DNA of 40,458 bases from an uncultured Bacteroidia bacterium (lineage in GTDB: Bacteria > Bacteroidota > Bacteroidia > Bacteroidales > F082): NCBI GenBank assembly GCA_902767725.1, contig CACXIM010000019.1, positions 1-40,458 on the forward strand, written 5' to 3'. Shown here piece by piece: positions 1,214 through 30,256 of the stretch (positions within the stretch are counted from its first letter, which is position 1; every line of letters begins with the position of its first letter). Both the position numbers and the translations under genes were made by a program. The notes under the pieces are model-generated. The model had not been told where the DNA came from. It made no database searches and saw only the letters and a list, made by a program, of their open reading frames with translations.

Positions 1214-2169
1214 CATTTGATTGCTATCTCTTTGAAAATCGTTTCCACCGCATCTTCATATTCCTTCAGTGCATTAATCTTTTTGATTTTTCGCCAAACC
1301 ACTTGCGGCTCTTCAAAGCTGTTCATCAGATAGGACCACAGTTCTTTCATTCTGCCTAAAACCTTTGGGCTGCCGCCAGCATGACGGAGGCGGTCTTCGT
1401 ATAGGTCGAGGACGTAGGCATGCAGGCGTTTTATCCTTTCGGACGAATTCGATGCGTCCCTACAGATGTCTTCCGCCAAAAAAGGATTGGCCAGCAAACC
1501 GCGTCCCAACATAAACTGGTTCACAGGTTGCACCAAATCCCTGATGCGCTCGAAACTTTCCACCGAAACAATATCCCCATTATACACCAACGGTGCATTA
1601 ATTAAAGGTATTATTGCCTTGAATCGCTCCACGTCAGCCTCGCCTTTGTACAATTGTTTACCGATACGCGGATGGATAATTAATTCGCTCAAACGAAACT
1701 TATTGAAAACTGGAATGATGGCGTCAATCTCCTCTGGGTTGAAATATCCCAAGCGACATTTTATGCTGAATTTGATGTCGATTTCTTCGAAAACCCTGTC
1801 CAGCATGGCCTCCACATTGTCAGGATAGGGTAGGAGTCCGCAGCCGCGTTTCTTGTTAGCAACCCTTGGGAAGGGACAACCCATATTCAGGTTGATTTCC
1901 TTGTAACCAAGTTGTCGGCATTGTTTGGCGAAACGAAGAATCTCTTCTGCGTCTGTGCTGAGGATTTGGGGTGTCAGTGTCTCGACGTCATTGCAGCGCG
2001 GGTCGATTTCCTCTCCTTGCAGGTTCTTTGCGTGTTCCTCTTTGTGAATGCCAGTGAAGAATGGTGTGAAGAACTTGTCGATGCCACTGAAATGTCGTTT
2101 GAATACATTGCGGAATGGGGCATCGGTAATGCCTTGGAAGGGGCCTAAAGAAAGAGACAATTCGCTCAT
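1213..2169 (-). CDS. tRNA-dihydrouridine synthase family protein
   Basis: 318-residue flavoenzyme of the Dus family, which reduces uridine to dihydrouridine in tRNA D-loops using FMN and NAD(P)H. The N-terminus has the barrel start LGPFQGITDAPFRNVF, then NLNMGCPFPRVANKKRGCGLL carrying the conserved catalytic Cys region. IKCRLGY and the HPRIGKQLYKG segment belong to FMN/phosphate binding. Length is normal for the family. It is the second gene of an lnt-dus pair: its ATG overlaps the lnt stop in an ATGA arrangement at 2166-2169, which suggests translational coupling. Which of DusA/B/C it matches in specificity cannot be settled here; Bacteroidota usually carry a single copy of this subtype. Confidence 0.88.
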   Translation of the reverse strand: MSELSLSLGPFQGITDAPFRNVFKRHFSGIDKFFTPFFTGIHKEEHAKNLQGEEIDPRCNDVETLTPQILSTDAEEILRFAKQCRQLGYKEINLNMGCPFPRVANKKRGCGLLPYPDNVEAMLDRVFEEIDIKFSIKCRLGYFNPEEIDAIIPVFNKFRLSELIIHPRIGKQLYKGEADVERFKAIIPLINAPLVYNGDIVSVESFERIRDLVQPVNQFMLGRGLLANPFLAEDICRDASNSSERIKRLHAYVLDLYEDRLRHAGGSPKVLGRMKELWSYLMNSFEEPQVVWRKIKKINALKEYEDAVETIFKEIAIK

Positions 2170-3854
2170 TTTTTCTTTCTCGTACCAGAGACTTTAGCTG
2201 CTTTTCGTGACTTGCCCAAGTCAAGGAACGACTTGGCGATCCATGTGATGAGCAACACGAAAGTGACATACACCGCGATGCGGCTGAGATAGTCACCGTT
2301 TTTGGCATAGAAGGTGGCTTCCGAGTTTGCTTTTAAGGTAGCCTTGATGGCATCAGGCTCCCAATAATTGGTCTGTTGCAACACATCGCCGCGTTGGTTG
2401 AAGAAACCGGAACGTCCTGTATTGGCTGAACGTGCAACGCAACGACGGTTTTCAATGGCTCTCAACTTGGAGAACTCAAAATGTTGCTTATAGCCTGGCG
2501 TATCTCCCCACCAGCCGTCGTTGGTGATGACGAAGAGCAAGTCGGCACCTTTGGCGCAGAACGAGCCAACATATTCACCGAAAGCCGACTCGTAACAAAT
2601 AGCAGCTCCGATTTTGTGGTTTCCAGAAGTCATCACCTTGGCCTCGGGATCGCCTTTCAACGTTCCACGTGCGATGCCCACGGTGAGACTGAAGTTGCGC
2701 AAAAAGCCCATCCACTCGGGAATGGCCTCCACGACTGGTGTGAGCTGCGACTTGTTGCGGTGCTGCAAATCGTCGCGGTTAATCAGCAGGGCGGAGTTGT
2801 GACAATAATAATATCTGTCGCCGTTGGCAAGCTTGCGTGCGGGGAAGTCGTCTTCCATCCCTTTGGGTACCCATTCGTATGTAGTACCACCGATGACGAA
2901 GGCCAATTCGGGGAATTGGGCAACATAGTCGTGCAGGGTGTTGAGAGCCTTGGCCTTGTTGGCTTCATGTAGCCAGATGCCTTCTTGGATGGCGGACTCG
3001 CTACTGATAATAAACCGTGTTTGGGGCGATACCAAAGGCCTCGAAAGATTAATGTTGTTTTGAATGACTTCGTCATAATAATGGTTGTCGAACTGCTCGT
3101 TCCAAGGATCACAGTTTTGCTGGACGACGATGACTTCCGTGTCAACACCTTTGTCTTCATAGTTTTTGTAAACGCGAGTACTTACAAGGATGGGTAGGAG
3201 GAGGATAAGCACTTCAAGGACGATGCTGGTTAAGATGGGCTTGGCCTCTTTTGTCTTGAAGAATTGTATGATGTTGGCAATGAGTATGTTCACTACCAAC
3301 ACCCAAAGTGTTCCACCAGGCACACCCGTATATTCGTACCATTGAATCCAACTGACCTTACTGGAGAAAACACCTCCCAAGTTGAGCCAAGGCCACTTGA
3401 TGGCCCACCAATACGTAAGCAGTTCGAAAGCCATCCAATAGGGGATGAGGAAGAAATTACCCCAAGGATTATTGCATACCTTTTTCTTTGTCAGGTGAAA
3501 TATAAAAAAAACAGTAGCCATGAATAGTGCATTGAGTATCCAGGCCAGCGTAGCGGCAGGAGTGGCATTCCACACCCACCAAGTGGTAGCCACGTTCCAT
3601 GTCAGAAAGGTCAAGAATGAAAGCCAAAACACGCGCCCTTTTTCACCTTGCGCTACCCGTCCTTCGACCAACAGTAAGGGGACAAAACCTATGAAAATGG
3701 CGGGAGCAATACCCCCAATGGGCCATGCTGCTGTTAGCAATCCTCCGCTTAATAGAGCGAAAAAGATATTGCGTAACCGCATTCCTTTATTGGTTGTTAA
3801 GTTTGTTGAAGCACTGCTTTTTGTGGTTTCGCGTCTGTTCGTCTTCCTTTTCAT
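2166..3854 (-). CDS. lnt: Apolipoprotein N-acyltransferase
   Basis: Inner-membrane enzyme that adds the third acyl chain to the N-terminal cysteine of lipoproteins, the last step of lipoprotein maturation. The 562 residues start with a basic tail, then several membrane segments (about 28-225) and a periplasmic nitrilase-type domain (about 240-510). The family catalytic triad fits Glu286 (IISSESAIQEG), Lys368 (HRNKSQLTP) and Cys420 (GAAICYESAF). The segment FVITNDGWWGDTPGYKQH is also typical. A last membrane helix precedes a basic C-terminus. The start at 3854 is 30 nt downstream of a -7 element; an alternative start is the Met at residue 25 (MRLRNIFF), closer to the first helix. The several lipoproteins elsewhere in the window would be its clients. 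Confidence 0.93.
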   Translation of the reverse strand: MKRKTNRRETTKSSASTNLTTNKGMRLRNIFFALLSGGLLTAAWPIGGIAPAIFIGFVPLLLVEGRVAQGEKGRVFWLSFLTFLTWNVATTWWVWNATPAATLAWILNALFMATVFFIFHLTKKKVCNNPWGNFFLIPYWMAFELLTYWWAIKWPWLNLGGVFSSKVSWIQWYEYTGVPGGTLWVLVVNILIANIIQFFKTKEAKPILTSIVLEVLILLLPILVSTRVYKNYEDKGVDTEVIVVQQNCDPWNEQFDNHYYDEVIQNNINLSRPLVSPQTRFIISSESAIQEGIWLHEANKAKALNTLHDYVAQFPELAFVIGGTTYEWVPKGMEDDFPARKLANGDRYYYCHNSALLINRDDLQHRNKSQLTPVVEAIPEWMGFLRNFSLTVGIARGTLKGDPEAKVMTSGNHKIGAAICYESAFGEYVGSFCAKGADLLFVITNDGWWGDTPGYKQHFEFSKLRAIENRRCVARSANTGRSGFFNQRGDVLQQTNYWEPDAIKATLKANSEATFYAKNGDYLSRIAVYVTFVLLITWIAKSFLDLGKSRKAAKVSGTRKKK

Positions 3855-3904: not shown

Positions 3905-3912
3905 TATCTTTG
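3905..3912 (+). promoter_or_regulatory. Promoter -7 element for the kinase-peptidase-PqqD cassette
   Basis: TATCTTTGCAC on the plus strand, 17 nt before the ATG at 3929. Because the element sits upstream of that ATG, it rules out the longer reading frame that opens at 3725 inside lnt. The two divergent -7 elements lie only 13 bp apart. Confidence 0.75.
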
Positions 3913-3928
3913 CACAAAATTTTGTTCA

Positions 3929-4798
3929 ATGAAAAGAGTGTATCAAGTTGCAGGTCATAGGTTCGCTGTCGTTATGCCCGACAACCATTTGGCATGGAAT
4001 GAGATGAAGCCATACGAACCTTTCCTTGCGGAAAATGACGGTGACTTGATTTTCACCGCTGAAATGGTTGATGTAATGCCAGATACATCTGATAAGCAGA
4101 AGATTACGGTGAATTGCGATGGTGCTGACATGCCTCGTATCGAGCTTTATGAATGTCAAGGTCAATGGTTGTTGGAGATAGCTCCTCTGCTTGAGGCTCC
4201 TGTTCGCGTTTATCTTATCACGGACAAGGCTTTCCATACGGCCAAGTTTAGAGTGCTCGGTAGCATGAGGTTTTCTTTGGGTACAGTGCTGATGCTGATG
4301 TTTGCTTTTGCAACGGCGAAAAAGAATACGCTGCTGATGCATTCTTCGGTGACTGTGAAAGACGGCAAGGCCTATCTCTTCTTGGGCAAGAGTGGTACGG
4401 GAAAGAGTACCCATAGTCAGCTGTGGATTAATACTATAGAAGGATGCGAATTGCTCAACGATGATAATCCTGTGCTACGGGTTATGGATGATGGATCTGT
4501 ACGCGTCTTTGGCTCACCATGGAGTGGCAAGACCCCCTGCTACCATAATTCGGATTATCCTGTAGGCGCCATTGTCGACCTCCATCAGGCTAAGGTGAAT
4601 AAAATCAGGAGATTGTCGCTTTTGGAGGCTTATGTTTCCATGTACGTTTCCTTCTCGGGTTATCGTTTCATCAAGGAGATGGCGGATGGTCTTCATGCCA
4701 CCAATGAGAAGATTGTTGGAACAGTGCCTTGCTATTCTTTGGATTGTTTGCCTAACGCCGACGCGGCTTACTTGTGCTATAATACTGTGACGCAGTGA
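3929..4798 (+). CDS. HPr-kinase-like P-loop kinase of a PqqD/S26/nucleotidyltransferase cassette
   Basis: 289 residues. The C-terminal half has the HPr kinase/PEP carboxykinase-type fold signature: P-loop FLGKSGTGKST at about 151-161, then ELLNDDNPVL with the acidic pair seen after the P-loop in HprK proteins, then GSPWSGKTPC. The N-terminal ~110 residues are not recognisable. It is not classical HprK: there is no HPr or PTS gene nearby. The family is known as HprK-related kinases next to PqqD-like chaperones, and relatives in paeninodin-type lasso peptide loci phosphorylate the precursor peptide. It is the first gene of a tight four-gene set and its stop overlaps the next start by one base. 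By inference it phosphorylates a peptide or protein substrate, perhaps the one encoded at 6761. The frame extends upstream to 3725, but the promoter at 3905 excludes that start. Confidence 0.8.
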   Translation: MKRVYQVAGHRFAVVMPDNHLAWNEMKPYEPFLAENDGDLIFTAEMVDVMPDTSDKQKITVNCDGADMPRIELYECQGQWLLEIAPLLEAPVRVYLITDKAFHTAKFRVLGSMRFSLGTVLMLMFAFATAKKNTLLMHSSVTVKDGKAYLFLGKSGTGKSTHSQLWINTIEGCELLNDDNPVLRVMDDGSVRVFGSPWSGKTPCYHNSDYPVGAIVDLHQAKVNKIRRLSLLEAYVSMYVSFSGYRFIKEMADGLHATNEKIVGTVPCYSLDCLPNADAAYLCYNTVTQ

Positions 4799-5232
4799 TG
4801 GAAATGACAGAGGCGGTAAATGCCGAATTTTTCGAGCAGCTTGGTAAAGGTAAGGTGGTACCGCTTGTTCCCCGAGGCATTAGTATGTTGCCTTTCATCC
4901 AAGGGGGACGTGACATGGTCTTGATCCATAAGGAGGAGAAGGTAGGCATAGGAGACATCGTTTTGGTCCCTCATGACGGTCGACTGATTTTGCATCGGGT
5001 TTATGCCATAGATGGGACAAGGCTTATACTGATGGGCGATGGCAACCTTAAGGGAAAAGAAACGGTTGACAAGTCGGAGGTGTTGGGCACTGTGAAGGAG
5101 ATTATCAAGGCGGGTGGAAGTTGTCGCACGCCACATAAGGCTTGGTTTTGGCGGCATTCACTGCCTTTGAGGTGGGTGATGCTCAAGCTGCGCCGCAAAT
5201 GGTATAAAATGAGAGGCTTAAATCCAGAATGA
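4798..5232 (+). CDS. S24/S26 (signal-peptidase-like) family peptidase
   Basis: 144 residues. It shows the signal peptidase motifs RGISMLPFI (candidate nucleophile Ser29), KVGIGDIVLVPHDG, LILHRVYAIDG (candidate base His66) and MGDGNLKG. The Ser/His pairing resembles the SipW/ER-type class rather than the Ser/Lys class of LepB. No N-terminal membrane anchor is visible; the C-terminus is basic and could be amphipathic (RWVMLKLRRKWYKMRG). The ATG at 4798 uses the last base of the kinase stop codon, so the two are probably translationally coupled. A GTG at 4795 in the same frame is an alternative start. By context it could remove the leader of a modified peptide; that is inference. Confidence 0.8.
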   Translation: MEMTEAVNAEFFEQLGKGKVVPLVPRGISMLPFIQGGRDMVLIHKEEKVGIGDIVLVPHDGRLILHRVYAIDGTRLILMGDGNLKGKETVDKSEVLGTVKEIIKAGGSCRTPHKAWFWRHSLPLRWVMLKLRRKWYKMRGLNPE

Positions 5233-5257
5233 GTAAACAATAGAAATACGATAAGTT

Positions 5258-5524
5258 ATGAAAACAAAGAAAGGTTTTGTATTGCGCTCTTTAGGTAGAG
5301 AGTATATCTTATTGGCTGAGGGCCTTGAGGTTGCCGATGCCAATAAGTTGATATCGATGAACGAATCGGCTGCTTTCCTTTGGAAGGCCGTAGAGGGCAA
5401 GGAGTTTGATGCCGACACATTAATTAATCTTTTGATGGAAGAATATGGCATCACGCATGAGGTGGCCGAAAAGGATGTCGTTTCGTTGTTGGAGACTTGG
5501 AAGCGGGCGGATATTATTAATTAA
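5258..5524 (+). CDS. PqqD-like peptide carrier / RiPP recognition element protein
   Basis: 88 residues matching the PqqD family: short N-terminal beta region, the central LISMNESAAFLWKAVEGK motif where the helix begins, then a helical C-terminus (LINLLMEEYGITHEVAEKDVVSLLETW). PqqD-type proteins bind leader peptides of ribosomally made, modified peptides and present them to modifying enzymes. It stands 25 nt after the peptidase gene and 13 nt before the nucleotidyltransferase gene, inside one apparent operon. Its presence is the main reason to read this region as a peptide modification system. Confidence 0.85.
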   Translation: MKTKKGFVLRSLGREYILLAEGLEVADANKLISMNESAAFLWKAVEGKEFDADTLINLLMEEYGITHEVAEKDVVSLLETWKRADIIN

Positions 5525-5537
5525 TAAGGTGTAGGGA

Positions 5538-6644
5538 ATGAATGCTGCCGAAACCCAGTATTTTGCCCTGTTGCGTGCCGCACTTTGGGATGCGCCTGTT
5601 GCCATCGATTGTCCCATCGATTGGAAAGCTGTCATGCAGATCGCTTATTATCATGGCAATCACGTATTGCTGTCGGATGTCGCTGTCCGCATGTCTGACG
5701 ACCAAAAGCCTTCTCCAAAGATGATGGCAAAAATGCAGGAATACATGCGCGGGAATTTGATGCTGCAGATGCGTCAGAAGCGCATCTTGTTTTCGGCAGT
5801 CAAATTACTTCGCGAGCATGGCATTGAACCAGTGCTACTAAAAGGTTTTGGTTTGGCGTCGCTCTATCCCAACGCTTGTCTGCGTCAGTCTGGAGACATT
5901 GACTTGTATGTCGGACTGGATAGTTTCCATGAAGCTTGTGCTTTATTGCGGACGCTTCCCGGATGCTACTATTGGTGCGATGAGGTTGACGTGGGTCGGC
6001 ATTACAACATCGAGTTTGGCGATGTGGTTATGGAGATACACCGTGTCAGTGCTGATGTGGTAGATGCCTGCGAACATCAGGTTTATACCGCTATTGAACA
6101 GGAAGGCTTGAAGGAGCAACCTCAACGTATTAATGTCGACGGTTTTGAGCTCAGCATTCCTTCTCGCGAATTCATGGTGTTTTTCACTTTCTATCATGCT
6201 TGGCACCATTTCATTACTTCGGGTGTGGGCTTGCGTCAGCTCAGTGACGTGGCCATGGCGTTGCATGCCTACCGAGGCCAGCTTGATCTGGAAAAGCTTC
6301 GCGAATGGCTCACTTCAATGCATTTGATGCTTCCTTGGCAGACTTTCGGCTTTTTGCTGGTGGATCGACTCGGGTTGCCGCAAACGGAGATGCCGTTTTT
6401 CAATGCTTCGTGCCGTCGTCGTGCGCAGATCGTTTACAAGCGTTTGATGAAAGACGGCAATTTCAAGCGTAAACGCAACATTAAACGCAATCGCCCTAAA
6501 CGTCGCTTATGGCAAAAGCTTCATGCTTTTATTTGCATGTTTATCGATTTCTTCCATTTGGTGGGCGTGTTTCCGAAGTTGGCCTTCCGAGAATTACGTA
6601 CCGCTTTGAAAGCGGGTTTGAGAAAAAATTTTCAAAAAAAGTGA
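5538..6644 (+). CDS. Nucleotidyltransferase family protein
   Basis: 368 residues resembling the uncharacterised nucleotidyltransferase family (PF14907-like). The core LLKGFGLASLYPNACLRQSG is followed by DIDLYV, with metal-binding aspartates at about 120 and 122; a helical region and a very basic C-terminus (KRKRNIKRNRPKRR) follow. Family members recur beside PqqD and HPr-kinase-like genes, including paeninodin-type lasso loci, but the substrate is generally unknown. Transfer of a nucleotide to a peptide or small molecule is inferred. It is the last gene of the four-gene set that begins at 3929; a new promoter follows at 6675. Confidence 0.8.
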   Translation: MNAAETQYFALLRAALWDAPVAIDCPIDWKAVMQIAYYHGNHVLLSDVAVRMSDDQKPSPKMMAKMQEYMRGNLMLQMRQKRILFSAVKLLREHGIEPVLLKGFGLASLYPNACLRQSGDIDLYVGLDSFHEACALLRTLPGCYYWCDEVDVGRHYNIEFGDVVMEIHRVSADVVDACEHQVYTAIEQEGLKEQPQRINVDGFELSIPSREFMVFFTFYHAWHHFITSGVGLRQLSDVAMALHAYRGQLDLEKLREWLTSMHLMLPWQTFGFLLVDRLGLPQTEMPFFNASCRRRAQIVYKRLMKDGNFKRKRNIKRNRPKRRLWQKLHAFICMFIDFFHLVGVFPKLAFRELRTALKAGLRKNFQKK

Positions 6645-6654
6645 CATTTTTTGC

Positions 6655-6682
6655 TTGGATATGAATTAATTAGTTATTTTTG
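6655..6682 (+). promoter_or_regulatory. Promoter for the small peptide gene
   Basis: A TTG at 6655-6657 and TATTTTTG at 6675-6682 (followed by CAGC) are 17 bp apart, close to Bacteroidota -33/-7 spacing. The predicted transcript has an A-rich leader of about 70 nt before the ATG at 6761. It gives the peptide, and perhaps the lipoprotein after it, expression independent of the modifying genes. Confidence 0.7.
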
Positions 6683-6760
6683 CAGCGTCAAACAGTGTGA
6701 AAAGGGAAAACGAAAACAAATTAATCAACAATAAATCAAACAATTAAACACTAATTAAAA

Positions 6761-6895
6761 ATGAAAAAGATGAACAAAATGTACGAAGCCCCCAAGGCTG
6801 AAATGATCGAAATGCACATGCCCGTCGTCTTGATGGGATCTGGAACAACCTCTCCCGAATTTCCTGGTACTGGAGATGGTATGGGTGAAGAATAA
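6761..6895 (+). CDS. 44-residue candidate modified-peptide precursor
   Basis: Small open frame with a good promoter and a long A-rich leader. The N-terminal part (MKKMNKMYEAPKAEMIEMH) has the Y-x-x-P pattern often seen in short Bacteroidales and Prevotella peptides of unknown function. After a short hydrophobic stretch (MPVVLMG) comes a small-residue segment rich in Gly, Ser, Thr and Pro (SGTTSPEFPGTGDG) that ends acidic (MGEE). That is the layout of a RiPP leader followed by a core: a PqqD-binding leader, a possible cut near LMGSG, and Ser/Thr residues open to phosphorylation. It follows the kinase-peptidase-PqqD-nucleotidyltransferase genes directly. No cysteines are present, so thioether chemistry is unlikely. 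The gene call is fairly secure; the precursor role is inference. Confidence 0.7.
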   Translation: MKKMNKMYEAPKAEMIEMHMPVVLMGSGTTSPEFPGTGDGMGEE

Positions 6896-6953: not shown

Positions 6954-7943
6954 ATGATGAAAAAAACGAACAAATTGTTTCTCACGATGTGCGTGGCTGG
7001 CTCTTTTGCCCTGCTGTTCGGTTCGTGCAAGAAAAATGAAGACACCCAAAAGGTAACGATTAACTTGCCTACATTTGAAGAGGAAGTTGACGGAAGAGCT
7101 TACATTGACTATGCCAATGGCAATAAGTTTATGTGGAATGGCAATGATAACGTCATTGTCTATAACCTTGACCAAGAAGGTCTTGCGTCTGAAAAAGCCC
7201 TCTATGCTACCGGTGCCGACGCAGAAGGTCGTCAACTCGCTACGTTCTCCTATGAATCTGGCGATCCTATCACCGCCAAGAAGTATGGTTACTTTGTGTT
7301 CTATCCTGCAGCCAAAGCTGAAGCAGCTTTGCTTGAAGGCAACTATCAAACCTTCACTGTTCCTGCCGAACAGACCTACACAATCGACAACGGTGGTACG
7401 CCTACCCTTGACGCCGCTGGTATGGCTTTGGCTTGCGATGTTGCCGACGTGAATACCACTTTTGCATTGAAGCATATCTTTGGTGCCTTGAAGCTCAGAC
7501 TGACTGGTTATGGTAATGTTACCAAGATTGAAGTTATCGATAACAGATATAACCTTTCTGGCAATGTTACTATGAAACTTCATGAAGTGACAATGGACCA
7601 ATTCCAATCAATTCAAACTAGCTTCATCGGAACGGAAGATCCTGATAACAACTGGGGTTTCATGACCTTATGGAGCGAATATAAGGATCAGTTAGGTTAT
7701 TCCGCTGAAGGTGAAGGCAAGGTCATGACCTTAAATTGCCCTGAACCTGTTGCTTTGGATCCTCAAGAAGAGACCCTCTTCCCCATCGGTCTCCGTCCGG
7801 GTGCCTTGAAGTATGGCTTCACCCTGAATGTGTATATGGAAGATGATCAAGAGCCGTATTCATTCGTGTTCGATCGTCCTGAATGGAATTATGGCATCAA
7901 GGCTGGTGTTAACAAGAACCTGGTCGTGTCATTGCCTTACTAA
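6954..7943 (+). CDS. Fimbrillin-like surface lipoprotein
   Basis: 329 residues with a lipoprotein signal peptide whose lipobox LLFGSC puts the acylated Cys at residue 25. The mature part resembles fimbrillin-family (Mfa/FimA-like) proteins: the MWNGNDNVIVYN segment, YGYFVFYPA, and FALKHIFGALKLRLTG, the usual link between the two beta-sandwich domains. It would be exported and lipid-anchored, perhaps surface exposed. It follows the 44-residue peptide gene by 58 nt in the same direction with no separate promoter seen, so it may share that transcript. A strong terminator follows at 7970. Whether it is a pilin, an adhesin or a partner of the peptide system is not decided by the sequence. Confidence 0.7.
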   Translation: MMKKTNKLFLTMCVAGSFALLFGSCKKNEDTQKVTINLPTFEEEVDGRAYIDYANGNKFMWNGNDNVIVYNLDQEGLASEKALYATGADAEGRQLATFSYESGDPITAKKYGYFVFYPAAKAEAALLEGNYQTFTVPAEQTYTIDNGGTPTLDAAGMALACDVADVNTTFALKHIFGALKLRLTGYGNVTKIEVIDNRYNLSGNVTMKLHEVTMDQFQSIQTSFIGTEDPDNNWGFMTLWSEYKDQLGYSAEGEGKVMTLNCPEPVALDPQEETLFPIGLRPGALKYGFTLNVYMEDDQEPYSFVFDRPEWNYGIKAGVNKNLVVSLPY

Positions 7944-8067: not shown

Positions 8068-8074
8068 ACAAGTG

Positions 8075-8147
<73 letters not shown>

Positions 8148-23795: not shown

Positions 23796-25100
23796 ATGGT
23801 GGTTTATAAGAAGATATTTCTATCCATCTTCCTTGTGTCCCTTGCATTTTTAGGTATAGCGCAAGAGCAACAGTCCTATCGTTTCACGTTGGAGGACTGC
23901 TTACGTTTTGCTATGGCCAATAGCTACGAGCGCAAGTCGATGGAATTGACAGGCAAGTCGCTGGAGACCTCCTACGAGCAGTCGAAGCAGCAAAGATTGC
24001 CTAGTGTGAGTGCTTCGGTGGGACAAAATTTTTCGAACAACGAGAACGGTTGGTCCACCTCGGGCAACGTAGGTGTGGGCTCTTCGGTGACGATTTACCA
24101 AGGTGGTAACATCAACAATACCATTGAGCAGAATCGCCTTAACGTGGAGCGCAACGAGGTGCAGCTGCAGCGCTATGATAACCAACTCACCTTACAAATA
24201 TTGCAGAGTTTTCTCACCATCCTGGGCAATCAGGAATTGGTGAGTTACCAGCAAGAGTTGCTCAACACCAGCCGTGAGCAATTGAAGCAGGGCCAGGCGC
24301 GACATCGTTTGGGGACCATCCTCGAGAGTGACCTTTTATTGCTTGAGGCACAATATTACAGCGACTCGAATAATGTGGTGGACACTCGGATCAACATAGA
24401 GAACAACCTGCTGGATCTCAAGGTGATGCTCTCGATGAACCCCTCCGATGATTTGGAAATCGTAGCTCCTAATACCGATGACCTTGAGATGCTGAAAGCG
24501 ACTTTGCCAACCGAAGAAGAAGCGGTCAATCTGGCCATGGAAACCATGCCCGACCTGCGCATGAGCGACTACGATATCCGCTTGGCTGAGAAGAGCGTTG
24601 ACCTGGCACGGGGCAATTATTTCCCGTCCATCTCGGCCAATGCCAACGTGGGCATGGGCATCTTGTCGTATGACAGTGACGGCAACTCAAAATGGTATGG
24701 CACGCCGACCGAATCGTTAGGCGTTTCGATGAGCATCCCAATTTATAGTCGTGGACAAACCAAGGCCAACGTGAAGAAGAGCCGCATCGCCTTGGAGCAA
24801 GCCCAGTTGGATTACGAGCAGTCTACTCTCACTGTTCGCCAGACTGTGGCTCAGGCTTACCGAAATGTGGTGTCGGCCTACAATGCCTACCAAGTTTCGC
24901 AAATCAAGGAAAATGCCTACAACAAGAGTTTCAATGCCTACAACATGCAGTATCAATACGGTAACATCACCACGGTGGAGTTGCTGCAACAGCAAAACAA
25001 TTATCTGAACGCCCTTAATTCTTATATACAGAACAAGTATTCCCTGTTGATGAAACGGAAGATCTTGGATGTCTATATGGGCAAAAACATTACACTATGA
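23796..25100 (+). CDS. tolC: TolC-family outer-membrane efflux protein
   Basis: 434 residues with a signal peptide (MVVYKKIFLSIFLVSLAFLGIAQ) and the two-fold repeated TolC layout. LEDCLRFAMANSYERK opens the first half; long periplasmic coiled-coil helices and short barrel strands follow in each half (ASVGQNFSNNENGW, SANANVGMGILSYDSDG). It forms the trimeric outer-membrane duct for the MacA/MacB-type exporter encoded next. A palindromic repeat follows its stop and separates it from macA. Confidence 0.88.
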   Translation: MVVYKKIFLSIFLVSLAFLGIAQEQQSYRFTLEDCLRFAMANSYERKSMELTGKSLETSYEQSKQQRLPSVSASVGQNFSNNENGWSTSGNVGVGSSVTIYQGGNINNTIEQNRLNVERNEVQLQRYDNQLTLQILQSFLTILGNQELVSYQQELLNTSREQLKQGQARHRLGTILESDLLLLEAQYYSDSNNVVDTRINIENNLLDLKVMLSMNPSDDLEIVAPNTDDLEMLKATLPTEEEAVNLAMETMPDLRMSDYDIRLAEKSVDLARGNYFPSISANANVGMGILSYDSDGNSKWYGTPTESLGVSMSIPIYSRGQTKANVKKSRIALEQAQLDYEQSTLTVRQTVAQAYRNVVSAYNAYQVSQIKENAYNKSFNAYNMQYQYGNITTVELLQQQNNYLNALNSYIQNKYSLLMKRKILDVYMGKNITL

Positions 25101-25104
25101 CAAA

Positions 25105-25174
25105 CGGCCCTTCGACGGGCTCAGGGACCTGAATTATACGATGGTCTAAGGTGCCTGAGCTTGTCGAAGGCCCG
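25105..25174. repeat. Intergenic inverted repeat between tolC and macA
   Basis: Two 25-bp arms, left CGGCCCTTCGACGGGCTC and onward, right ending GAGCTTGTCGAAGGCCCG, with four mismatches and a 20-bp spacer. There is no T run, so it is not a normal terminator. Its form is that of a REP-like palindromic element and it could stabilise or attenuate the tolC message ahead of macA. Confidence 0.6.
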
Positions 25175-25190
25175 ACAATGAACAACAACT

Positions 25191-26388
25191 ATGAAGAAAA
25201 AAAGAAAAATATGGCTGATTATCCTAGGCATCGTTGTTTTGGCCATTGCCGCGATAGTCATCGTCAAAATGACGAAATCAGCAAACAAGGAATTGGTGAT
25301 CAGAACCCATGTGGTGGGGGAGTATACCGTTGAAAACACTGTCACTGCGACGGGTACCATCGAGCCGGTGGAGACCGTGGAAGTCGGTACCCAAGTGTCG
25401 GGTAAGGTTGAAAAAATCTATGTCGACTTCAACGACGTGGTGAAGAAAGGTCAGCTGATGGCTGAACTGGACAAGCAGACGCTCAACCAGAGTCTCAGCC
25501 GTGCCAAGGCGAGTCTCACATCGGCAGAAAGTCAGCTCAACTACGCCAAGCTGACTTACGAGCGTACCAAACAACTCTATGAGGCGAATGCTGCCACCTT
25601 GGCTGCCTACCAAGAGGCGCAGAACTCCTACACCCAGGCGCAGATGAGCAAGCGAAACGCTCAAGCTTCATACGACCAGGCGCGTGTTGATTTGGCATAC
25701 GCCGAGATTTATTCGCCTATCGATGGCATCGTGCTCGACCGTGCCGTAGAGGTGGGCCAGACTGTGGCTGCCTCGTTCAGCACACCTACATTGTTTACCT
25801 TGGCCAACGACTTGACCCGTCGACGCTTACATGGACGATGTTTTCAACGGCACCGTCAACCAGATCCGTATGAAACCCACCACGACGAGCAATGTGGTGA
25901 CCTACACCGTCATCATCGAGGCACCCAACCCCGACCAGAAACTCTTTCCCGGCATGACCGCCAGCGTGACCATCGTCACGGAGGAACAAACTGGTTTGGC
26001 TGTACCCGCCGAAGCCTTCAACTTCACGCCCGACGAGGCAGTGTTGAAAGCCATCCGCAAAGCTGACAAACCTGATGGTCAACGTCCTGAGCCACCACAA
26101 GGTGAACGTCCTCAGATGGACAAGTCATCGGCAACAAGTCATTCGGTGGTGTGGTTGAAGAAGGGCGACGATATGATGCCGCGTCCCGTGAAAGTGGGCA
26201 TGAGCGATGGCGCCTACAAGATTATTGAACAAGGTGTACAGGCTGGCGATTCAGTCGTGTTATCGGCACAATTTGTCACCAAGGAGAAGACCGTGAAGAA
26301 GGGAGAGAATCCTTTCATGCCAGGCCCTCCCGGAAGGAATAGGAACAATAACAACAATAAAAGTGGCAACTCAGGTGGCCAGAAATAA
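25191..26388 (+). pseudogene. macA: MacA-type periplasmic adaptor, frameshifted by an internal deletion
   Basis: Membrane-fusion protein that links a MacB-type ABC exporter to TolC. The first frame (25191 to about 25820) has the membrane anchor, the VENTVTATGTIEPVETVEVG strand, GTQVSGKVEKIYVDFNDVVKKGQ, a coiled-coil hairpin and the lipoyl part (YSPIDGIVLDRAVEVGQTV), up to FTLANDLTR. The next family segment (about 24 residues like MQV-A-VDEADIG-V-EGQ) is absent. The sequence resumes in another frame at VDAYMDDVFNGTVNQIR and continues through PGMTASVTIVTEEQ to a normal end at 26388. A loss of about 74 nt near 25820/25821 accounts for both frame and length. The first frame would run on to 26066 as nonsense. 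The distal part is intact, so a recent mutation or an assembly fault are both possible. Confidence 0.85.
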
Positions 26389-26390
26389 TC

Positions 26391-27055
26391 ATGAGCGAGC
26401 GGCAATCCATCATCAAGGTTGAGAACCTCAAGCGGACGTTTGTCGTCGGCAGTGAGGAGGTGCATGCCCTCAAGGGCGTGTCGTTCGACATCTGCCAGGG
26501 GGAGTTTGTGAGCATCATGGGCTCGTCGGGCAGCGGCAAGTCGACCTTGCTCAATCGGAGATACGTAACCGTAAGATTGGGTTTGTGTTTCAATCCTACA
26601 ACCTTTTGCCGCGCACCTCTGCTTTGGAGAACGTGGAGTTGCCTTTGGTCTATAATCCTGATGTGTCGCACCGCGAGCGTCACGAGAAGGCGCAACACGC
26701 CTTGGAATTGGTGGGTTTGAAGGACCGTATGGGACACATGCCCAACCAGCTCTCGGGTGGTCAGCAGCAGCGTGTGGCCATAGCGCGTGCCTTGGTCAAC
26801 GACCCGGTCATCGTGTTGGCCGACGAAGCCACGGGTAACCTTGATACCCGCACTTCATACGAAATCATGAGTCTCTTCCAGAGCCTTCACGAACAGGGGA
26901 AAACCATCGCTTTTGTGACGCATGAATCTGACATTGCGGTGTTTACCAGCAGAACGATATTTCTGCGCGACGGTCATATCCTCCGTGATGAGCCGGTAGC
27001 GACAAAGTCGGCAGCGGAAGCGTTGGCAGCATTACCCAAAGATAACGATTATTGA
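26391..27055 (+). pseudogene. macB: MacB-type ABC transporter ATPase, frameshifted by an internal deletion
   Basis: ATPase of a MacB/LolD-type exporter. The first frame (26391 to about 26555) gives [27 protein letters not shown] and Walker [13 protein letters not shown]. The family next has about 29 residues (TLGCLD-PTSG-Y-LDG-) that are missing. The sequence resumes in another frame at [20 protein letters not shown] and holds the ABC signature [15 protein letters not shown], Walker [14 protein letters not shown] and the switch histidine AFVTHES, ending normally at 27055. The gap is about 85-90 nt and not a multiple of three. As written neither fragment is a working ATPase. Start and stop keep operon spacing: 2 nt from macA, 1 nt to the permease gene. 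Confidence 0.87.
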
Positions 27056-27056
27056 T

Positions 27057-28277
27057 ATGGATATTCTGAACCTCATACGCATATCGGCAAAAGCCTTGTT
27101 ACGCAACAAGACGCGTACGGCGCTTTCCATGCTTGGCATCGTGATTGGTATCGCTGCTGTCATTGCCGTGGTCAACTTGGGCGAAGGATTGAAACAGAGC
27201 ACGGCCAACCAACTCTCTGACATGGGCACCAACCTCATCATGGTGATGCGTGCTAATCAGAGGCGCGGCGGTGTCAGCATGGGTTCTGGCAACGTGCAGT
27301 CGCTCAAGGTCAGGGATTGTGAGTTGATAGCCAAAGGCGCCAAAAACGTTACTATGGTTAGTCCCGTAGTGAACAGTGCTGGTCAGTTGGTGAACGGTTC
27401 CAAAAACTGGTCTGGAACAGTGTACGGAGGCTCGCCCGACTATTTGGAAATCAGGAAATACGAAATAGCCACAGGCGTTAACTTCACTGAAGAGGATGTG
27501 AAGAAATATGCCAAGGTCGGCTTGATAGGTCAGACCATCGTCAAAGAGCTGTTTGACACGGGTGAAGACCCTATCGGCAAGACCATCCGTATTGGAAACA
27601 TGCCTTTCAAGGTCATTGGAACGTTGAAAGAGAAAGGCCAAAACGGTATGGGCATGGACCAGGACGACCTTGTGGTGATGCCCTATTCTACAGTGCAGAA
27701 GCGCATGTTGGGCGTTGACTATATCCAGCAAATTGTGTGTTCTGCCGCTTCCGAGGATGTAGCGGAGGCCGCTGTGGAGGAAATCGAGAACATTTTACGT
27801 GTCTCTCACAAGATTCCTGACGGTGGTGTGAACGATTTCGAGGTGCGCACCCAGCAGGAGATGTTGGAGATGATGTCGTCGATGACAGGCATGATTACCA
27901 CCGTACTGGTTGCCATCGCATTGATTTCTTTGTTGGTAGGCTGTATCGGCATTATGAATATCATGTACGTCACGGTGACTGAGCGCACTAAGGAGATCGG
28001 TTTGCGCATGTCCATTGGCGCAAAGAACTCTGCCATTTTGATGCAGTTCCTTACCGAGAGCATCATCCTGAGCCTTATTGGTGGCGTGATTGGCCTTTTG
28101 CTGGGCTTGTTGCTCTCTTATGTGGTTTCTTTGGCCATGTCGATGCCTTATATCATCAATGTGCCATGGATGTTTATTTCCTTCGTGTCGTGCGCCATCT
28201 TAGGTCTCATCTCGGGATTCTTCCCTGCCTTGAAGGCCTCGCGTACCGACCCCATCAATGCCTTGAGGTACGAATAA
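27057..28277 (+). CDS. MacB-type ABC transporter permease (FtsX family)
   Basis: 406 residues. An N-terminal helix (SMLGIVIGIAAVIAVVNLG), a large periplasmic MacB-PCD domain (about 45-265), then three C-terminal helices of the FtsX domain (MITTVLVAIALISLLVGCIGIMNIMYVTVTERTKEIG, about 275-310, and two more to the end). The ending FPALKASRTDPINALRYE is standard. It couples to the ATPase encoded just upstream (here frameshifted) and works with MacA and TolC to expel a substrate from the periplasm. Length is normal and no lesion is seen. Confidence 0.92.
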   Translation: MDILNLIRISAKALLRNKTRTALSMLGIVIGIAAVIAVVNLGEGLKQSTANQLSDMGTNLIMVMRANQRRGGVSMGSGNVQSLKVRDCELIAKGAKNVTMVSPVVNSAGQLVNGSKNWSGTVYGGSPDYLEIRKYEIATGVNFTEEDVKKYAKVGLIGQTIVKELFDTGEDPIGKTIRIGNMPFKVIGTLKEKGQNGMGMDQDDLVVMPYSTVQKRMLGVDYIQQIVCSAASEDVAEAAVEEIENILRVSHKIPDGGVNDFEVRTQQEMLEMMSSMTGMITTVLVAIALISLLVGCIGIMNIMYVTVTERTKEIGLRMSIGAKNSAILMQFLTESIILSLIGGVIGLLLGLLLSYVVSLAMSMPYIINVPWMFISFVSCAILGLISGFFPALKASRTDPINALRYE

Positions 28278-28292
28278 CAAACCATTTGTGTT

Positions 28293-29501
28293 ATGAATAA
28301 ACACACAATTAATACGGTCGACAACTACCTTTCGCTGAAAAGGATTATTACATTATCTCTTGCCATAACGATTGCCTATTATGCCCTGTTTGCTCTGAGT
28401 CACTATTTCGGTCGGCCTTCTTTTGCCAGTTCAAATGAAGAGGAAGAGGTCGAACCGGAAAAAGAGCATGTGGTCGGTCAGAACGAATTGGCATTTGGCG
28501 AGATTCAAAAACGATGGCCTGCCCTTTTTCAGGCCGAACGGTTCCAACCAGGCTACAAATTTGTCAAACCGAAGTTTTCCACCATCTTGCTGTTTAATAT
28601 CCCGTTTACTTTCCTGATGATGTTTTCCGTGTTCCTCTTCAACAGGTGGATTATGGGCAGGACCTACAACCGACATCGAAACGAGTTGTTGGCAAATATC
28701 ATTGGCACTTTGTTACTTGCAGGTTTGTTGAGTTCGATTTGTACGCTTGTTCAATTGTATATATGGCCACATGGGCCTGGCCCGCAGCGCTCGTTGATGG
28801 GGTATATCAGCCGAGGCATGTTGGGCGATTTCATGTTGGTGGCCATCGCTTTTGTGTTCAGCTATCTGCAACGTTCCCTTTACTATGAGAAGAGGATTGC
28901 GGTTGAAAACGAAACGCTTCGTGCCGAGAACCTCAACTCGCGTTACGAAGCATTGAAGAACCAGCTCGACCCCCATTTTCTCTTCAATTCGTTGAACACG
29001 TTGTGGTCGCTGATTGAGGACGATGCAGACAAGGCCGAAGACTTCATCCAACAATTGTCGGATGTGTTGCGCTATACATTGCAGAACAAGGAGGTGGTGA
29101 CTTTGGCTGAAGAGCTGGATTGTGTGCGTTCCTATTGTCGAATGATGAAAATACGCTATGGCGACAACTTGGCTTTTGACCATGGCATCGATCATGATGC
29201 GTACGATTACCATTATGTGTTGCCGCTTTCCATCCAAGGGCTGATTGAAAATGCCATCAAACACAATGTCATCTCTTCTAAGCAGCCGCTGACGGTGCAT
29301 ATTCATACCGATGACGATAACCACTTGATAATTAGTAATAAAATCCAACCAAAAATAGGCAAAGAAGAGGGAACGGGTATTGGTTTGGCCAATTTGGCGG
29401 AACGTTATCGGATAAAATGGAACGAAAATGTGGAAATTTTCAACGATGGAAAGAATTTTAGTGTAACTTTGCCTCTTAAACAAAACGATCAAACATTATG
29501 A
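28293..29501 (+). CDS. LytS-type sensor histidine kinase
   Basis: 402 residues. Four membrane helices (about 18-40, 95-117, 131-155, 175-195) are followed by a short coiled coil and a His_kinase domain with phosphoacceptor His228 in KNQLDPHFLFNSLNTLWSLI. An HATPase region follows with the N box SIQGLIENAIKHNV and the GTGIGLANLAERY glycine box. Between helices 1 and 2 an acidic extracytoplasmic stretch (SSNEEEEVEPEKE) may sense ligand. It overlaps the response regulator gene by an ATGA, and it probably controls the efflux operon it belongs to. Confidence 0.9.
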   Translation: MNKHTINTVDNYLSLKRIITLSLAITIAYYALFALSHYFGRPSFASSNEEEEVEPEKEHVVGQNELAFGEIQKRWPALFQAERFQPGYKFVKPKFSTILLFNIPFTFLMMFSVFLFNRWIMGRTYNRHRNELLANIIGTLLLAGLLSSICTLVQLYIWPHGPGPQRSLMGYISRGMLGDFMLVAIAFVFSYLQRSLYYEKRIAVENETLRAENLNSRYEALKNQLDPHFLFNSLNTLWSLIEDDADKAEDFIQQLSDVLRYTLQNKEVVTLAEELDCVRSYCRMMKIRYGDNLAFDHGIDHDAYDYHYVLPLSIQGLIENAIKHNVISSKQPLTVHIHTDDDNHLIISNKIQPKIGKEEGTGIGLANLAERYRIKWNENVEIFNDGKNFSVTLPLKQNDQTL

Positions 29502-30256
29502 AAGCACTTATAATTGAAGACGAAGTGATGGCTGCCAAGACGCTGAAGAAGCTTCTTGTGGAGGTCAGCCCAGGTATCGAAATCGTTGGCATACTTGAAT
29601 CTATTGAGGACAGCGTGGATTGGATAGCGAGTCATGCAATGCCCGACCTTATGTTTATGGACGTCCATTTGGCCGACGGCTCCTCGTTTACCATTTTTGA
29701 ACGCGTTACCATCACCTGTCCGGTCATCTTCACCACGGCATACGACGAATATGCCCTCAAGGCCTTTGAAGTGAATAGCATCGACTATTTGCTGAAGCCT
29801 ATCAGCAAGGAAGCCTTGGAGCGTGCCATGAACAAATACCATGCATTAGTGGAGAAGCCTGTTGGCAACAGCCAGATTGAAGCGCTCTTGACCCAATTGA
29901 GCGAGAAAAAGAAATACAGGAATTATTTCCTTTTGCCCGAACGTGACAAGTTCATACCGCTGCCGGTCAACAATATTGTCTACATATATATTGATGCCAA
30001 GACGTTGAAGATTGTGACTACAGACGGGAAGACATTCTATATGAACCACACTTTGGACGATGTGATGAGCGAGCTTGATCCGCATGAATTCTTCCGTGCC
30101 AACCGTCAGTTTGTCGTCGCGCGCCAGTCCATCAAGGATGTGTCGGTATGGTTTGGCAACAAGTTGGCCATCAATCTGTACGTCGAAACACCCGAAAAGA
30201 TCATTGTCAGCAAGGCGCGCGTAGCTGAGTTTAAAGTTTGGTTTACAAAGCAATAA
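29498..30256 (+). CDS. LytTR-family response regulator
   Basis: 252 residues. The N-terminal receiver domain has acidic residues EDE at 7-9, phosphoacceptor Asp55 (LMFMDVHLADG), TTAYDEYALKAF and Lys in YLLKPIS. The C-terminal LytTR DNA-binding domain starts near residue 145 (FLLPERDKFIPLPVNNIVYIY) and holds FFRANRQFVV. It is paired with the kinase through an ATGA overlap, and such LytS/LytTR pairs in Bacteroidota often lie with MacB-type exporters. Confidence 0.92.
   Translation: MKALIIEDEVMAAKTLKKLLVEVSPGIEIVGILESIEDSVDWIASHAMPDLMFMDVHLADGSSFTIFERVTITCPVIFTTAYDEYALKAFEVNSIDYLLKPISKEALERAMNKYHALVEKPVGNSQIEALLTQLSEKKKYRNYFLLPERDKFIPLPVNNIVYIYIDAKTLKIVTTDGKTFYMNHTLDDVMSELDPHEFFRANRQFVVARQSIKDVSVWFGNKLAINLYVETPEKIIVSKARVAEFKVWFTKQ

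Follow-up and report, generated by a model that had tools for sequence, protein, structure and literature searches.

A probable linear phosphopeptide operon of Bacteroidales with a pilin-fold lipoprotein beside its precursor gene

What do four tightly packed maturation enzymes make of a small peptide encoded directly behind them, and what is the part of the lipoprotein gene that follows? This question is raised by a locus in the 40,458-nucleotide contig CACXIM010000019.1 (assembly GCA_902767725.1) of an uncultured Bacteroidia bacterium, the whole of which is here called the window. Six co-directional genes, encoding an HprK-like kinase, an S26-type peptidase, a PqqD protein, an NTP_transf_5 protein, a 44-residue peptide and a lipoprotein, lie between a divergent lnt gene upstream (2166–3854, minus strand) and a tRNA-Phe gene downstream (8074–8147, minus strand). 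An original prediction, made from the letters of the DNA, had set out positions 3905–6895 as an unassigned system for a ribosomally synthesized and post-translationally modified peptide (RiPP). As a whole unit that stretch ends too early, since the lipoprotein gene at 6954–7943 (plus strand) is part of it, and systems of this kind have since been described as those of the linear polyphosphorylated peptides (LPP; published 2026, PMC13381572). We consider it likely that the locus encodes an LPP-type RiPP system of Bacteroidales, whose core peptide would be phosphorylated and cut out but not cyclized, and which would be paired with a surface lipoprotein.

A conserved leader, a variable core and four enzyme genes

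The kinase was searched in 149 genomes including the window's own and was found in 44 (33 of 90 genomes of the same genus and 11 of 59 others); wider loci were fetched for 40 of these plus the window, with G079, G115 and G136 left out. The order kinase, S26-type peptidase, PqqD, NTP_transf_5, peptide of 37–49 residues and lipoprotein is identical in 29 of 29 syntenic loci (28 fetched and the window), and the remaining three fetched loci of the genus (G014, G060 and G025) are differently arranged, the first two keeping the order NTP-kinase-S26-PqqD-ABC. Because an open frame stands at the same position in all 29 syntenic loci, the peptide gene (6761–6895, plus strand) is not a chance reading frame; no Pfam profile at E up to 1 and no NCBIfam profile at E up to 10 matched its product. 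Residues M1, K2, Y8, A10, P11, A13 and E14 are invariant across these loci, and conservation drops after about residue 26, leaving in each a conserved leader with the motif Y8-x-x-P11 and a hypervariable tail. This drop points to a cut near the L24-M25-G26/S27 junction, which would give a predicted core of residues 27–44 (6839–6892, plus strand) with Ser27 as a candidate phosphorylation site. A Ser at Pro+16 is found in 13 of the 29 operon peptides and in 44 of 47 dispersed peptides of the same type, in the latter mostly after L-C-[AST]. Operon cores are of Gly/Ser/Thr/acidic composition, with Lys or Arg accounting for 0.8% of 496 residues.

The peptide gene also appears to have its own promoter. 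Within the 116 bases that separate it from the NTP_transf_5 gene lies, at 6650–6682 (plus strand), a TTTG followed by TAnnTTTG, which we take to be the form of a Bacteroidetes-type promoter and which would serve the peptide-lipoprotein cassette. The motif occurs upstream of 15 of the 29 orthologous peptides (mean of 0.16 in dinucleotide-block shuffles), 8 of 47 dispersed peptides (shuffled mean 0.25) and 3 of 29 kinase genes (shuffled mean 0.44).

Core and lipoprotein are the most divergent parts of the unit, with median distances of 1.03 and 0.82, respectively, compared to 0.30–0.54 for the enzymes. Eleven species pairs were compared, and in the four whose Lnt proteins are 97–99% identical, the leaders are 84–100%, the cores 9–46% and the lipoproteins 42–90% identical. 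The kinases of one such pair, G016/G071, are only 80% identical as well, so its operon may have been exchanged. The leader covaries with PqqD (r 0.47) and with the S26-type peptidase (0.34) beyond its covariation with kinase and NTP protein, and the operon core covaries with the lipoprotein (0.23) and not with the peptidase.

The four enzyme genes are closely packed (a 1-base overlap, then gaps of 25 and 13 bases), all on the plus strand. The first (3929–4798, 289 residues) gives weak profile matches below curated cut-offs (PEPCK_ATP, 1.6e-5; HprK_rel_A, 8.9e-6), its best NCBIfam matches, ScmC and HprK_rel_A at ~9e-6, being likewise below cut-off, and a sequence comparison with the PDB finds the PEPCK structure 1ii2 at E 0.0034. 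In alignments of 15 and 33 homologs its P-loop GKSGTGKST and His138, Lys159, Asp178 and Asp179 are invariant, the His-Lys-Asp-Asp (HKDD) residues that lasso kinases are reported to require (PMC9266682). On weak profiles plus the HKDD residues only, we class it as a putative HprK-like kinase of the LPP kind, with a proposed role like that of LppK or PadeK. The second protein (4798–5232, 144 residues) matches Peptidase_S24 above cut-off (PF00717, 5.6e-6), with Ser29, His66 and Asp81 invariant in 15 homologs, no N-terminal transmembrane helix visible, and weak PDB sequence matches to LexA (0.0016) and SEC11A (0.05). It would be the leader peptidase, of the SipW/Sec11 (archaeal-type) signal peptidase I kind with Ser-His-Asp, an assignment made by residue types and by the 32% identity to the S24/S26 peptidase of an LPP-like Bacillota cluster; in LppS, a change of S29, H68 or D93 abolished cleavage (PMC13381572). 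The PqqD-family protein (5258–5524, 88 residues; PF05402, 9.9e-16), a putative discrete RiPP recognition element (RRE), is the single PqqD match in the window's assembly, which is listed as 79.6% complete. The last enzyme (5538–6644, 368 residues; PF14907, 3.9e-35) is nucleotidyltransferase-like, with K102, G103, G119, D120 and D122 invariant in 14 homologs and no PDB relative found by sequence search. It would correspond to the NTP transferase of LPP clusters in a proposed second modification, although its role is the least certain of the four: PsmN has been linked to a hexose on the phosphate (PMC9266682), whereas deletion of lppN had no effect in the host studied (PMC13381572). The kinase, the Ser/His S26-type peptidase, the PqqD and nucleotidyltransferase proteins, their tight operon and the leader/core-like peptide with its own promoter had all been named in the original prediction, and each was borne out by these results.

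A maturation route can be proposed from these parts. PqqD would bind the YxxP leader of the 44-residue precursor; the HprK-like kinase would phosphorylate a core Ser, by analogy with LPP and paeninodin most likely the Ser right after L-[CM]-x where present; the S26-type peptidase would cut near the junction given above; and the NTP_transf_5 protein might, if PsmN is a guide, add a further group to the phosphate. A cyclization step is not proposed, because no lasso B2 protease was found. The single operon would serve several precursors whose genes lie at other places in the genome, and the fast-diverging lipoprotein of the pilin-fold family may be the mature peptide's partner, as a receptor, carrier or immunity protein.

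Co-occurrence of peptide and operon

A wide leader profile (A5, whose L159 row carries a one-letter error outside YxxP) finds the peptide in 35 of the 149 genomes (E up to 1e-3), 34 of which, all but G041, also carry the kinase; in the genus itself, the peptide is present in 32 of 33 kinase-bearing and in 1 of 57 kinase-less genomes. Across 393 genomes of the order, where the kinase is present in 61 (E up to 1e-6), the peptide was found in 13 (E up to 0.01), and 12 of these carry the kinase (exception G379); four of the 13 were already in the earlier set, and 8 of the 9 new ones carry the kinase. The phyletic P-values (8e-10 and 2e-23) ignore phylogeny. Operon presence must change five times on a 52-genome Lnt tree, with well-supported branches forcing at least three of these changes, and none of nine operon-less genomes inside the operon-bearing clade has the peptide at E up to 0.1. 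In three of the nine (G045, G022 and G030) a lipoprotein of the family still adjoins lnt and the genes from kinase to peptide are gone; in the other six, lnt directly borders the gene located behind the cassette in the window. Within the genus, 32 of 33 genomes with the kinase and 11 of 57 without it match the lipoprotein profile, the same three being the only strong matches in the second group.

Gut and rumen Bacteroidales often carry relatives of the kinase: a scan of genome contigs gave at least 586, of which the named ones are uncultured Bacteroidales metagenome-assembled genomes, many labeled as ruminant, and gene order was checked for the best 80. In the neighborhood of 99 kinase genes outside the syntenic clade (same strand, within 6.5 kb; loci at contig ends included, some possibly from one genome), an S26-type peptidase was found in 85, PqqD in 79, an ABC exporter in 65 and NTP_transf_5 in 21, with exporters detected by profile, as a simple LSGGQ pattern had missed known ones. 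Outside the clade, one of the refuting conditions named in the original prediction, enzyme genes that usually lie without a small peptide nearby, counts partly against it: NTP_transf_5 is near those 21 of 99 kinases, and a YxxP peptide was recognized by eye in the fetched flanks of about 8 of 80 kinase loci (the best 80 of at least 586) and 2 of 20 further ones. In the syntenic loci the peptide recurs in all 29. Such scarcity would suit four enzymes serving some other purpose next to an unrelated small reading frame. We regard this coincidence as very improbable, given the position and leader conserved in 29 of 29 loci, the peptide's absence from the nine operon-less close relatives and its co-occurrence with the kinase in 34 of 35 and 12 of 13 genomes.

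Kinase relatives also occur in five records of a plasmid collection, three of which were inspected. Two further operons were observed, with no precursor recognized within the 12–13 kb fetched: kinase-S26-PqqD in Prevotella sp. oral taxon 299 (L342) and PqqD-NTP-ABC-kinase-S26 in Phocaeicola massiliensis (L344).

Dispersed cassettes and the lipoprotein partner

The product of the gene at 6954–7943 has a type V pilin (fimbrillin) fold, and peptide and lipoprotein genes adjoin each other in 29 of 29 operon loci. Five further peptides of the same type are encoded elsewhere in the window's genome, compared to its one PqqD match. We assembled a dispersed set of 47 such peptides in 44 fetched loci and searched it with a profile made from the operon lipoprotein (E below 1e-3): a relative of that lipoprotein follows 44 of the 47 peptides within 600 bp, and 39 within 100 bp. 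One operon per genome thus apparently serves many cassettes, a conclusion drawn from co-occurrence. In the dispersed cassettes, core type tracks lipoprotein type (Mantel 0.50, uncorrected, 44 cassettes; leader-lipoprotein 0.30). The idea that the core copies a strand of its lipoprotein was rejected, as a core's own lipoprotein ranks at a median of 20.5 of 44.

Outside this group, 23 fetched peptides of other families divide into 10 that precede a lipobox protein, 1 that shares a frame with a lipoprotein and 12 with neither. In the shared frame (L294:1504–2613, genome G332) a YxxP leader peptide of the LCASGG type and a lipoprotein share one open reading frame, by natural fusion or assembly error. 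Six loci of one family (L290, L293, L300, L301, L309 and L315, in genomes G199, G298 and G379) encode YxxP peptides with no adjoining lipoprotein, several of them ending in W-G-D/E-D/E; these peptides resemble small Prevotella proteins. The operon at L317:5941–8366 (G472) itself contains genes for a YxxP peptide and a lipoprotein, behind which come a PDDEXK_2 transposase-family gene, PqqD and an ABC exporter, and at L045 (G016) the operon peptide precedes two tandem lipoproteins of the family, which suggests duplication of the partner.

The pairing of peptide and lipoprotein could instead mean that the enzymes target the pilin-fold lipoproteins, or the assembly of these, with the small peptide an accessory, for example chaperone- or donor-strand-like, and not the precursor of a released product. 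The adjacency in the operon and in the dispersed cassettes, the single open frame of L294, the way the lipoprotein family follows the kinase within the genus, a leader-lipoprotein covariation of 0.40 and the lack of an exporter beside the operon in 12 clade loci all agree with such a role. We nevertheless judge it improbable, since the YxxP leader/core split and the covariation of leader with PqqD fit a RiPP precursor, cores are unlike their own lipoproteins, and 12 of the 23 peptides of other families have neither an adjoining lipobox protein nor a fusion.

Within the preferred LPP-type reading, the pairing may hint at the function of the peptide family. We tentatively propose that a single trans-acting operon produces several related phosphopeptides, each the counterpart of the pilin-fold surface lipoprotein encoded beside it, the two diversifying jointly as a cognate ligand-receptor or effector-immunity pair. 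A somewhat doubtful variant, compatible with the same chemistry, would make the modified peptide an antibacterial toxin and the lipoprotein its target or the producer's protection: core and lipoprotein are the most divergent parts and covary, genomes hold several cassettes and operon presence has changed, but no exporter stands beside the operon in the window's clade, and operon cores nearly free of Lys/Arg are unlike what we take to be usual for membrane-active bacteriocins. Together, precursor-lipoprotein pairing in this genus and the absence of the peptide where the operon is missing give a concrete hypothesis for peptide function and a natural multi-precursor system. If true, the proposal of cognate pairs would offer the first approach to the function of LPP-type RiPPs and be the first to connect RiPPs with type V pilin-like proteins; no publication combining 'fimbrillin-like' and 'RiPP' was found in the open PMC literature.

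Several observations weigh against an LPP-type system with a dedicated precursor and partner. Beyond the sparse recurrence of YxxP peptides near distant kinases, the profile finds the peptide in only 12 of the 61 kinase-bearing genomes of the order, leader-like peptides exist in G041 and G379 without a detected kinase, weak peptide matches appear at E up to 0.1 in kinase-less G020, G036 and G099, and the leader profiles (A1, A5) derive from peptides found in genomes with the kinase, which biases the search towards these. Dispersed peptides are also missing from about 8 of 30 close relatives that do carry the kinase (by reading of search output), and the absence from nine operon-less genomes therefore counts as three to five independent changes, not nine. 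The candidate Ser is missing from 16 of the 29 operon peptides. Covariation is not specific, leader-lipoprotein (0.40) exceeding core-lipoprotein (0.23) and core-kinase reaching 0.22, and shared inheritance of neighboring genes may therefore explain it. Two departures concern LPP itself: the invariant YxxP is followed by a hydrophobic and then a mostly small residue at P+13/P+15, compared to P+10/P+12 in LPP, making the spacing from Pro to the likely cut ~3 residues longer than in Px9Fx[T/A]; and the MsbA-like exporter of LPP clusters is not seen at the window's locus, none of 12 clade loci tested having an ABC exporter beside the operon and the best ABC match in the window's genome reaching 26% identity. 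As a side observation, the look of the open reading frames at 23796–30256, ~16 kb from the cassette, suggests a set of efflux proteins (TolC-like, HlyD-like and FtsX-like) together with a sensor and a LytTR-like regulator.

Comparison with lasso and LPP systems

Could the operon belong to a lasso peptide, with cyclase and B2 protease encoded elsewhere? Paeninodin- and pseudomycoidin-type lasso clusters (PadeK, PsmK, PsmN; PMC9266682) share with it an HKDD-type kinase, a PqqD-type B1 protein and a nucleotidyltransferase. In contrast to them, the window's operon has an S26-type peptidase in place of B2 and no lasso cyclase is seen adjoining: the transglutaminase-like B2 protease (PF13471) has no match in the 33 kinase-bearing genomes of the genus, several of which are incomplete, and no Asn-synthetase domain was found in a Pfam scan of eight window proteins, genomes not having been searched for PF00733. 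The lasso reading, for which we see scarcely any chance, was rejected on the missing B2 match, in agreement with the original prediction that both lasso enzymes are absent. That prediction also proposed a peptide phosphorylated or nucleotidylated, cut from its leader and left uncyclized, with an S26 peptidase replacing B2. The LPP precedent (PMC13381572), with its same enzyme classes and YxxP leader, lends this chemistry support by analogy. The lipoprotein partner, the service of one operon to several dispersed peptides and the ABC exporter of related Bacteroidales operons had been overlooked.

As presented in PMC13381572, LPP systems are restricted to Bacillota and of unknown role, and combine an HprK-like kinase, a discrete RRE, a SipW-like peptidase, an NTP transferase, an MsbA-like exporter and a YxxP leader within the precursor motif YxxPxVLxHQxIxFETxxS, i.e., Px9Fx[T/A]. 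Further marks of the type are polyphosphorylation of a Ser in the core, leader cleavage that depends on the RRE, and an RRE placed in the LPP clade of the RRE tree. For the lpp cluster of Paenibacillus alginolyticus the same source reports phosphorylation and cleavage and a linear phosphorylated intermediate, with the final product not found; the word stem 'bacteroid' is absent from its main text. We found no report of such a system in Bacteroidales in the open PMC literature for the terms used. On the Butyrivibrio fibrisolvens plasmid pNP243 (L343:5680–7703), an LPP-like cluster of a rumen Bacillota host, beside PssD/PssE polysaccharide genes, comprises genes for an HprK-like protein, a Cys-, Pro- and Tyr-rich YVKP peptide of 57 residues, PqqD, an S24/S26 peptidase, an ABC protein and a nucleotidyltransferase. 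Its kinase (32% identity, 7e-26), S26 peptidase (32%, 6e-16) and PqqD (30%, 3e-13) are homologs of those in the window (E-values from a four-sequence comparison).

The window's operon thus has in common with LPP the HprK-like kinase, the discrete RRE, the SipW-like Ser-His leader peptidase, the NTP transferase, the lack of a cyclase, the YxxP leader with a variable C-terminus and the types of catalytic residues, and related Bacteroidales operons add the ABC exporter (65 of 99 loci). Because the exporter is missing at the locus and the leader spacing differs, we regard it as working like an LPP system but as a variant, not a plain member. It differs in its Bacteroidales host, in a longer leader before the likely cut and in a clade without an exporter beside the operon; and in this genus, unlike in LPP, one operon goes with several dispersed precursors, most of which have a lipoprotein of the pilin-fold family at their side.

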